Source of the DNA: Bacteroidales bacterium
Lineage (GTDB): Bacteria > Bacteroidota > Bacteroidia > Bacteroidales > P3
Length of the DNA stretch: 36,197 bases
Reading direction: 5' to 3'
Assembly: GCA_024400565.1 (NCBI GenBank)
Contig: JAKSMQ010000017.1
Coordinates: 1-36,197, forward strand
Of the stretch, positions 7,589-36,034 are shown piece after piece. Position numbers and translations under genes: made by a program. The first letter of the stretch is position 1, and each line of letters starts with the position of its first letter. The notes below the pieces were generated by a model. It was not told the DNA's origin, made no database searches, and saw only the letters and a list, made by a program, of their open reading frames with translations.

Positions 7589-7731
7589 GCTACTCATAGG
7601 CATCCAGACAGCATATAGCGTCCATATAGGGTGCACATAGCGTCCACGAAACGGCCTTCTGGTGGAGGCTATATGCTGTTTGTATGCTGGCTATATGCTG
7701 CCTATATGGACGCTAAGACCTGTCTGAAAGG
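7589..7731. repeat. 11-bp-period repeat array, locus B (inverted halves)
   Basis: Consecutive 11-bp units from 7589: GCTACTCATAG, GCATCCAGACA, GCATATAGCGT, CCATATAGGGT, GCACATAGCGT, CCACGAAACGG, then an 11-bp centre. Opposite-sense units follow from 7666: AGGCTATATGC, TGTTTGTATGC, TGGCTATATGC, TGCCTATATGG, ACGCTAAGACC. The inverted arms include a perfect 14-bp pair (7617-7630 with 7701-7714) and a perfect 7-bp pair (7605-7611 with 7720-7726), so the RNA could form a long imperfect hairpin. Bases 7605-7636 match locus C bases 24828-24859 at 30 of 32 positions. Confidence 0.85.
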
Positions 7732-9397: not shown

Positions 9398-10738
9398 ATG
9401 GCATCATTTGAAATAAAGGGCGGCCATCGTCTACATGGAGAGATTACTCCCCAGGGAGCCAAGAACGAAGCGCTTCAGGTAATATGCGCAGTCTTGCTCA
9501 CAAACGAGAAGGTGGTAATAGAGAACGTGCCCGATATACGCGATGTAAACAAGCTGATAGAACTGCTTATGCTGATAGGCGTAAAAGTAAAATGCACCTA
9601 CCAGGATGAGAACGAGCGTACCTTTGAATTCCAGGCCGACCAGGTGAACATGGAAGCGCTACGCAGCCCCGAATTTGCCACCCAGGCTACAGCCCTTCGT
9701 GGCAGCATTATGCTGGTGGGGCCCCTGCTTTCGCGCTTCGGATGGGCCATCGTGCCCCAGCCCGGCGGCGACAAGATAGGCCGCAGACGTCTCGACACCC
9801 ATTTCATCGGAATGGAACAGATGGGTGCCAAGGTGACCTATCACTATTCACGATACGAGGTAAGCGCCCTCTCCGAAGATGGAGCCACAAAACATAAGAA
9901 CCTGAAGGGTACCTACCTGCTGCTCGACGAAGCCAGCGTTACCGGTACGGCCAATCTCATAATGGCTGCAACTATGGCCGAAGGCGAGACCACCATCATG
10001 AATGCCGCCTGCGAGCCTTATGTCTACCAGCTTTGCCACATGCTCAACCACATGGGTGCTCAGATACGCGGCCTGGGTTCCAACCTGCTCCACATCCACG
10101 GCGTACGCAAACTGCGTGGCTGCAACCACCGTCTCCTTCCCGATATGATCGAGGTGGGTTCCTTTATCGGAATGGCAGCCATGACCCAGAGCGACATTAC
10201 CATCAAGAATGTTCAGGTAGAACATCTCGGACTCATCCCCCAGGTATTCCGCCGCTTGGGTATTGAAGTATGGCAACAGGGCGACGACCTTTTTATTCCC
10301 GCCCAGGAGCACTATAAGATAGAACGCTTTATGGACGGCAGCATCATGCACATAGCCGATGCCCCCTGGCCCGGATTCACACCCGACCTTATCAGCATAG
10401 CCCTTGTGGCAGCCATCCAGGCGAAAGGCAGCGTGCTGATACACCAGAAGATGTTCGAGAGCCGACTCTTCTTTGTCGACAAGCTTATCGACATGGGTGC
10501 CCAGATTATACTCTGCGACCCCCATCGTGCTACCGTTATCGGCCTTGACCACGAGCATGCCCTGCGCGGCGTACGTATGACTTCGCCCGACATACGTGCC
10601 GGCGTTGCCCTGCTTATAGCAGCTCTTTCGGCCAATGGTGTAAGCCGTATCGACAATATTGAACAGATAGACCGCGGATATCAGCATATCGACGAGCGCC
10701 TGCGTGCCCTCGGAGCCGATATCCGACGTATTGAATAG
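9398..10738 (+). CDS. murA: UDP-N-acetylglucosamine 1-carboxyvinyltransferase (MurA)
   Basis: 446 residues, normal for the family. It catalyses the first committed step of peptidoglycan synthesis, transfer of enolpyruvate from PEP to UDP-GlcNAc, in the cytoplasm. QGAKNEAL (about 19-26) is the Lys/Asn active-site motif. The PEP-loop motif reads PQPGGDKIGRR, so the position of the usual catalytic Cys (Cys115 in E. coli) is Asp125, codon GAC at 9770-9772. Asp-type MurA enzymes are active but are not alkylated by fosfomycin, so intrinsic resistance is expected. The gene starts 34 bp after the DUF4290 gene. Confidence 0.97.
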   Translation: MASFEIKGGHRLHGEITPQGAKNEALQVICAVLLTNEKVVIENVPDIRDVNKLIELLMLIGVKVKCTYQDENERTFEFQADQVNMEALRSPEFATQATALRGSIMLVGPLLSRFGWAIVPQPGGDKIGRRRLDTHFIGMEQMGAKVTYHYSRYEVSALSEDGATKHKNLKGTYLLLDEASVTGTANLIMAATMAEGETTIMNAACEPYVYQLCHMLNHMGAQIRGLGSNLLHIHGVRKLRGCNHRLLPDMIEVGSFIGMAAMTQSDITIKNVQVEHLGLIPQVFRRLGIEVWQQGDDLFIPAQEHYKIERFMDGSIMHIADAPWPGFTPDLISIALVAAIQAKGSVLIHQKMFESRLFFVDKLIDMGAQIILCDPHRATVIGLDHEHALRGVRMTSPDIRAGVALLIAALSANGVSRIDNIEQIDRGYQHIDERLRALGADIRRIE

Positions 10739-24811: not shown

Positions 24812-24932
24812 GCATACAATCAGCATACAGACAGCATATAGAGTGCATATAGGGTGCACGGAATGGGTAAAACGCCCTGCCTGAGTGCTACTTATGTGCT
24901 GCCTAAGTGCTACCAATGTGATTGCTGAGAGC
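24812..24932. repeat. 11-bp-period repeat array, locus C (inverted halves)
   Basis: Consecutive 11-bp units: GCATACAATCA, GCATACAGACA, GCATATAGAGT, GCATATAGGGT, GCACGGAATGG, then a centre unit at 24867. Opposite-sense units follow from 24878: TGCCTGAGTGC, TACTTATGTGC, TGCCTAAGTGC, TACCAATGTGA, TTGCTGAGAGC. It directly follows the flippase gene. The first half is nearly identical to part of locus B. Confidence 0.82.
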
Positions 24933-31125: not shown

Positions 31126-31590
31126 TTATTTGCCTTCGCAGCAACCGCCATCTTTGTGCTCGTGTTTGCAACCTTCGTGGTCGTGGCCACAACCTTCGTG
31201 ACCTTCGCAGCAACCTTCGGTAGCCTTGATTTCCTTAGCCTTAGCTACGAGCTCCTGCATGTGAGCAACGTCTACATACTTAGCAAGGTTTTCGCCATTT
31301 TCGGAGATGAGGTTTTCAACCTTAGCAGCTACCTTAGGAGCCATGCCGTTTGCGGTCTCAACGAGTTCAGCCAACTTGGTCTCAACCTTTGCCCAGTTCT
31401 CAACAACAGCTGCGCTATCGTTAGCCTCAAGGCCCTTTGCAATCATGCTGAAGGGGCAATTGCCTTCACATTGTTCCTGCTGAGCAGCGGTATCGGTGCT
31501 GGTAGTATCAGCAGCATTTTCGTTGTTGGAGTTGCAAGCTGCAAAGCACATAGCAGCTACACATGCCATAGCAAAAAAAAGTTTTTTCAT
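31126..31590 (-). CDS. Lipoprotein with Cys/His-rich metal-binding tail
   Basis: 154 residues from the ATG at 31590; a longer frame to 31629 adds residues before the signal. MKKLFFAMACVAAMCFAAC is a lipoprotein signal with Cys19 as the lipid site. A Thr/Asp linker with CEGNCP follows, then a helical Ala/Glu/Lys-rich part (about 55-125), and a tail dense in Cys, His and Glu (GCCEGHEGCGHDHEGC and more to the end). The tail looks like a chelator of zinc, copper or nickel. It has its own promoter and terminator, so it is a single-gene unit, divergent from the sulfonolipid genes. No named family recognised. A role in metal binding at the envelope is inferred. Confidence 0.82.
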   Translation of the reverse strand: MKKLFFAMACVAAMCFAACNSNNENAADTTSTDTAAQQEQCEGNCPFSMIAKGLEANDSAAVVENWAKVETKLAELVETANGMAPKVAAKVENLISENGENLAKYVDVAHMQELVAKAKEIKATEGCCEGHEGCGHDHEGCKHEHKDGGCCEGK

Positions 31591-35881: not shown

Positions 35882-36034
35882 TTTTGTAGAGACGATTCAG
35901 TCCCGATATAGTGATTTTGTAGAGATTTTGTAGAGTCGATTCGGTGTCCATTCGGTGTTTTTGTAGAGATTTAGTAGTCTTTTTGTAGTGTTTTTGTAGT
36001 ACTTTTGTAGTCAAAACGGCCACTTTTGTAGTCG
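35882..36034. repeat. 11-bp-period tandem array, locus E (TTTTGTAG type)
   Basis: Fourteen consecutive units, all but one exactly 11 bp. TTTTGTAG starts units at 35882, 35915, 35926, 35959, 35981, 35992, 36003 and 36024 (the last after a 10-bp unit); TTTAGTAG at 35970. The positions between are filled by CGATTCAG, CGATATAG, CGATTCGG and CCATTCGG in the same phase. Two further units lie upstream at 35681 and 35692. All units point the same way, unlike loci A-D. Confidence 0.85.

Follow-up and report, generated by a model that had tools for sequence, protein, structure and literature searches.

Dispersed intergenic arrays of an 11-bp unit in a Bacteroidales genome and its genus: tentative binding arrays for a putative DNA-binding protein

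The stretch of DNA analysed here (the window, 36,197 nt) is part of a draft genome of 1,894,204 bases in 57 contigs that is 71.6% complete. It carries a tRNA at positions 1-51, which is its only Rfam match at the gathering score, and arrays of 11-bp units that match no Rfam family at that score. Three of these (loci A, 489-587; B, 7589-7731; and C, 24812-24932) had been named in the original prediction, and a fourth, built of a different unit, had been missed. The parts of the arrays are as follows.

489-587, no strand assigned: locus A, a weak array with a degenerate inverted second half; four forward units scored (454-575), no reverse unit scored; seen by lag-11 autocorrelation
7601-7644, forward strand: left arm of locus B, forward units of the CAYNTAGCGTC type with degenerate outer unit(s); three units scored, 7612-7644
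7645-7664, no strand assigned: centre of locus B, 20 nt (cacgaaacggccttctggtg), a length equal to that in 16 of 30 two-arm loci
7665-7719, reverse strand: right arm of locus B, reverse-complement units of the GAGGCTATATG type; four units by the profile, five at a looser cut
24812-24866, forward strand: left arm of locus C, forward units; includes the 32-bp core in common with B (30/32)
24877-24931, reverse strand: second half of locus C, degenerate 11/22-bp repeats of the CTGCCTGAGTG / CTGCCTAAGTG type
35882-36030, no strand assigned: fourth array, with a different 11-bp unit (about TTTTGTAGTNN)

The periodicity claimed for the three loci is real, since lag-11 autocorrelation reaches 0.489 in A, 0.523 in B and 0.564 in C against shuffle means of about 0.25, and none of 5000 shuffles attained the observed value at any of them; lag-22 autocorrelation is elevated as well. 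The core reported for B and C was correct on recounting (starts 7605 and 24828), and locus A is weaker over the same 32 bp, with 25 positions in common with B and 22 with C. In B, forward units, the 20-nt centre and reverse units follow one another; no reverse unit was scored in A, and the second half of C is degenerate. Judged by the unit profile, only B of the three is a two-arm locus. Locus C falls under the three-unit rule of the profile and its periodicity was detected without it; locus A contains a 24-nt inverted repeat (516-539/570-593) at 71%. The TTTTGTAGTNN-like unit and its complement, mostly in direct order, form a second family of this genome, found also at about 1347-1437 of L079 and about 14766-14914 of L087. 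Separately, a 21-bp tandem repeat of 2.5 copies lies at 31168-31219 of the window.

Bacteria commonly carry dispersed repeats between their genes, and the family to which locus B belongs was found to be dispersed, as had been proposed. The pattern CAYATAGCGTCCAYATAGCGTC, with at most two mismatches, gives 114 tandem-pair matches in the 1.89-Mb draft (68 forward and 46 reverse), and the reversed control of this pattern gives none in the same genome. A scan for an excess of the 11-bp period, the check proposed along with the original prediction, covered 413 kb of DNA from this genome, namely the window and 20 further stretches of which many were picked for carrying matches, and found 30 arrays of period 11, 30 of period 22 and 15 of period 33, with 0 to 5 at the other periods from 7 to 39. 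Ten Markov-1 simulations of these 413 kb yielded no period-11 array in any run. Five stretches (90 kb) on contigs without a match known beforehand held five arrays at a looser cut of 28/44. The arrays extend over about 55-220 bp, and those of the window's own family have 3 to 16 scored units. Outside the arrays, runs at lag 11 did not clearly exceed those at other lags (4 in DNA of this genome, 18 in DNA of the genus), which counts against a plain slippage bias towards 11 bp, and a general bias of this kind was rejected.

The profile describing the unit was seeded with eight hand-typed units, with at least three units required for a locus, and it is partly circular in that the loci behind it were found with the same profile. 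Its consensus over 350 score-filtered units, CAYNTAGCGTC, therefore looks tighter than in a recount, and for this reason 180 units were taken by position alone, without the score filter, beside the inner units of 30 loci. In this recount, which uses loci found with the profile and hence still carries selection, column 5 is T in 92% (1.53 bits), column 6 is A in 86% (1.35 bits) and column 3 is C or T in 94%, with column 4 nearly free at 0.20 bits. The constraint within the unit is thus position-specific.

The 46 rows of clustered units contain one locus twice (L083 and L157) and so represent 45 loci, 30 with two arms and 15 with one scored arm. The order unit, centre, reverse unit is found in all 30 distinct two-arm loci. 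The gap between the innermost units measures 20 in 16 loci, 31 in 10, 42 in two, and 64 and 32 in one each, and it equals 20+11k in 29 of the 30, i.e. both arms stand in a single 11-bp phase. It had been suggested that a pitch close to one DNA turn would suit a protein reading one face of the DNA, and in this respect the suggestion is supported. Unit scores drop outward on either side of the two-arm loci, and arm lengths vary widely from locus to locus. Adjacent units are more alike than units of different loci (identity 0.73 versus 0.65), so that part of the likeness reflects recent duplication. The two-arm loci of this genome are also probably related by descent and consequently do not represent independent trials.

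Duplication of this kind raises the question of a functionless satellite, in which slippage and fold-back synthesis would multiply the units wherever intergenic DNA tolerates them. The likeness of neighbouring units and the decay of the outer ones agree with such an origin, as do some single-arm arrays that look, by eye, recently expanded. The uneven constraint within the unit and the lack of a clear 11-bp excess outside the arrays weigh against it, and so do two observations in relatives, described below, namely a conserved core at a site common to two species and a single pitch maintained despite unlike units. We consider a neutral satellite improbable, and the least credible of the alternatives.

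The original prediction also held that a transcribed array could form a long hairpin. In its wider form this explanation involves RNA or cruciform DNA, with the 11-bp repeat lying on one face of the helix and serving a double-strand-binding factor or the end or stability of a transcript. The elements do fold strongly in silico (mean z -4.85 for 26 loci, against mononucleotide shuffles), as would follow from one unit being present in two orientations. When arms were exchanged between the two-arm loci with a gap of 20 or 31 (26 of the 30), Watson-Crick pairing was 0.643 for arms of the same locus and 0.653 for swapped arms (p 0.74), and the folding energy of a locus' own arms had no advantage over swapped arms on either strand (p 0.88 and 0.77). 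Across all 30 loci, units in opposite arms were identical at 0.624 within a locus versus 0.653 between loci, and arm lengths were not positively correlated (rho -0.32, p 0.085). The arms of the window family do not co-vary within a locus, and the proposed covariation check thus speaks against the long RNA hairpin; a selected RNA hairpin is not supported in this family and was rejected there. Arms that share a unit without co-varying at the locus are, on the other hand, what one would expect if a single factor had inverted sites. Some relatives carry near-perfect palindromes (G026/G046 and G048/G072), which leave room for a hairpin in those genomes, and 14 of 37 arrays of the genus have their own inverted partner at 18/22 or better compared with 2.6% of swapped pairs.

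The arrays were found between genes, as claimed. With genes called by codon usage in the present analysis, each of the 32 array rows from this genome (28/44 cut, two of the rows being halves of one locus) shares at most 20 bp with any called gene, in DNA of which 82% is coding, and all 37 arrays of the genus lie outside called genes with a coding overlap of at most 1%. Gene orientation is disregarded. The 49 rows from this genome, in which one locus is counted twice, are divided into 18 divergent, 24 tandem and 7 convergent contexts, and the 34 rows from the genus into 15, 16 and 3; earlier gene calls on fewer stretches of this genome (26 rows) gave 5, 17 and 4. Divergent intergenic regions are not depleted of arrays under either set of gene calls, and enrichment there (p 0.08 and 0.11) is not claimed.

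Sense-strand pyrimidine skew was positive in 7 of 16 tandem contexts, whereas a Rho utilisation site is characterised by a pyrimidine-rich sense strand of the upstream gene. On the basis of this polarity and of the arrays between divergent genes, an intrinsic or Rho-dependent terminator was rejected, and both observations also weigh against the hairpin, which, with the missing co-variation and the uncorrelated arm lengths, we regard as quite unlikely. Of 23 arrays tried, 15 passed a 24/33-pair cut, and in 14 of these the arms are rich in pyrimidines when read inward, the exception being locus B of the window (0.49); the sign test on this tendency (0.0005) is optimistic in that related families were treated as independent. 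Upstream of DUF4290, 15 arrays (27/44 cut), often of unlike units, were found in 40 anchored stretches (39 from relatives and the window, L223 being omitted), and this enrichment (p 0.017 by share of non-coding bases) is suggestive only, because the gene calls are uneven and one negative interval was set to 0 bp.

Counterparts in relatives, whose absence would have counted as a refutation of the original prediction, are present with other units. Relatives were sampled in 58 stretches, 1.086 Mb in all; 45 genomes of the genus contributed 53 of them and other genera of the family five, with L058 and L061 excluded since they had been chosen for the repeat. The sample contained 37 arrays of period 11, all inside the genus, in 29 of the 53 stretches and 27 of the 45 genomes; periods 7 and 22 followed, with 22 and 20 arrays. 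A sample from across the order (40 stretches, 787 kb, of which 39 are from other families and one, G141, is from another genus of the family) contained two period-11 arrays.

The pitch is common to these genomes and the unit sequences vary among them, 43 arrays falling into 34 clusters at 9/11 identity. Among 13 genomes searched, the unit CTTCAGTAGTT gave 220 matches in G048, 111 in G072, three in G102 and none in the other ten, and CTACCGTTCCC gave 114 in G073, 26 in G088 and none in the other eleven. The spaced motif TAGCGTC-N4-TAGCGTC of the window family occurs 76 times in the window genome, 13 times in G065 and once each in G036, where it lies outside any array, and G101, and is absent from 116 of 120 genomes; G065 has TAGCGTC units and also, by eye, a centre-like sequence. 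The reversed control pattern produced eight matches in G112, which suggests another 11-bp family in that genome. A GTYC motif in the units of all species was convincing by eye and was rejected, since its presence in 9 of 34 clusters is not outstanding against 60 shuffles (mean 4.2, maximum 9).

Other periodic arrays were encountered along the way. Stretches from other genera of the family (L066, L069, L070) hold 22-bp arrays, some with inverted units, six in 100 kb, and no 11-bp arrays at the cut that yields the 22-bp ones. Heptamer arrays, mostly non-coding, occur in several other families of Bacteroidales (L240, L255, L258, L265, L266). Butyricimonas synergistica has an 11-bp array (L100, 4524-4620) that is inverted and built of a similar unit (ATGAACGCTAT). 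Two viral contigs with a common flank carry an 11-bp array of the CATATAGC type (L108 at about 10279-10490, L109 at about 649-825) directly upstream of a set of genes, that of the large terminase subunit among them, and the pattern scans also matched a Rhodobacteraceae record.

The age and movement of the arrays can be followed between G026 (RGIG2655) and G046 (RGIG6188). One site common to both aligns at 93.1% over 3.1 kb, and its 110-bp palindromic core has no differences, compared with 16 and 13 in the 60 bp on either side. At a second place, with flanks at 90% and 95%, G046 has a GTACGCTATAT palindrome; G026 carries another 11-bp palindrome, TTCTTATATCG, in a 1.3-kb interval together with further inserted sequence. 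At a third (L033 in G026) the corresponding region of G046 consists of pieces at about 70-78% identity, and no array was found in it within roughly 400 bp to the contig end, though one was expected there, which speaks for gain or loss. In the unit-sharing species pairs G072/G048 and G073/G088 an array occupies roughly the same position upstream of DUF4290 (in G048 as read from coordinates), suggestive of long residence.

Such differences in occupancy bear on a REP- or MITE-like non-autonomous mobile repeat, in which the units would be transposase-binding sites ending a short palindrome, with a different family in each species. This origin gains from the many intergenic copies, from families confined to one or a few species, from the G026 array that lacks a counterpart in G046, from the copies of these two genomes, which are about 110-120 bp long with similar ends, and from Y1 transposase family matches in 39 of 59 genomes of the genus. 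However, no Y1 match is present in several array carriers, namely the window genome, G046, G090 and G024; the arrays of the window's own family, with their variable number of units, have no fixed MITE-type ends; and the like-placed arrays by DUF4290 suggest long residence. A RAYT-driven REP was rejected on the grounds that the window genome has no match to the Y1 transposase (PF01797), a result that is not final for a genome that is 71.6% complete. A mobile repeat is in our view unlikely, but the most credible of the alternatives.

According to passages in PMC3733652, REPs are palindromes of 20-40 bp located mostly downstream of genes and tagged by GTAG or CGTC, and CGTC repeats are present also in Bacteroidetes, without a dedicated Y1 transposase. 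The arrays resemble REP/RPE families as so described in that many short palindromic repeats lie between genes. They differ in being tandem, with 11-bp units repeated along about 55-220 bp, and divergent contexts account for 18 of the 49 rows from this genome and 15 of the 34 from the genus (5 of 26 under the earlier gene calls). The window unit, CAYNTAGCGTC, happens to contain CGTC once per 11 bp and not as the tag of a palindrome. The unit families at 7612-7644 and 35882-36030 contain CGTC and GTAG, respectively, and this coincidence with the tags of known REP superfamilies may be due to chance.

The pho box, bound by PhoB/OmpR-type response regulators, consists of 11-bp direct repeats, in promoters and with few units. 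The head-to-tail sites at an 11-bp pitch are alike in both, and the present arrays are unlike such boxes in having many units, often inverted, and in ignoring gene orientation. In the part of PMC9426499 concerned with plasmid partition, ParR of plasmid R1 is stated to need at least two 11-bp repeats, and parC repeats to be usually direct and upstream of parM, with sequence and spacing differing between systems. As portrayed there, parC shares with our arrays the tandem sites at about one helical turn and a repeat sequence that varies between systems; in contrast, the arrays described here comprise about a hundred chromosomal matches, with inverted halves and one pitch. An 11-bp periodic bias across whole genomes (class A flexible patterns), in coding and non-coding DNA alike, is described in sections of PMC1242344 and PMC4132750; the period is the same, whereas discrete intergenic arrays of long units are found here. 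The bacterial 11-bp signal is, in the relevant section of PMC4132750, commonly attributed to the pitch of negatively supercoiled DNA. No account of arrays like the present ones was found in the open-licence literature, among the matches listed.

We tentatively favour the explanation that the dispersed intergenic arrays are binding arrays for a putative DNA-binding protein, with a confidence somewhat short of even; a mobile, hairpin or neutral origin is each considered less likely. Each 11-bp unit would be one site, and the sites would recur once per helical turn on one face of the DNA over about 3 to 16 turns; in two-arm loci two such arrays would face each other across a short centre in one phase. 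A sequence-specific protein may coat the arms and thereby form a wrapped or bridged nucleoprotein block, and its role would more likely be in chromosome architecture or segregation, as for ParR on parC, than in the control of single genes. Across the genus the geometry stays and the sequence of the unit differs by species. The uneven constraint in the unit, the uniform order and phase of the two-arm loci, the arms that share a unit without co-varying, the lack of a clear 11-bp excess outside the arrays, the high match counts of other units in G048, G072 and G073, the unchanged core at the site common to G026 and G046, the TAGCGTC units of G065, the avoidance of genes without regard to their orientation, the constant pitch with other units and the proposed relation of an 11-bp signal to the pitch of negatively supercoiled DNA (PMC4132750, in the section mentioned) are counted in favour of binding arrays. 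Weighed against them are the variable arm lengths, the one-arm loci (15 of 45), the circularity of the profile, the likely common descent of loci, the failure of a shared GTYC motif to stand out, the palindromes compatible with a hairpin, the recent duplication of units and the array missing in G046.

One may further speculate, as a bolder and in itself unlikely extension of the binding-array explanation, that the genus has a chromosomal site system in which only the geometry (pitch, facing arms and intergenic position) is kept and the sequence is replaced in each species as a DNA-binding protein evolves rapidly with it; such a system would be the bacterial equivalent of the fast-changing satellites of centromeres. 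If the arrays are a mobile or neutral repeat instead, the fixed 11-bp pitch still requires explanation. It would be unusual for a genus to keep one 11-bp layout in more than half of the sampled species and yet to change its letters. If the binding arrays are genuine, they would constitute a natural experiment on the joint change of a DNA-binding factor and its chromosomal sites, and possibly a new kind of site by which gut Bacteroidales organise or segregate their chromosome.
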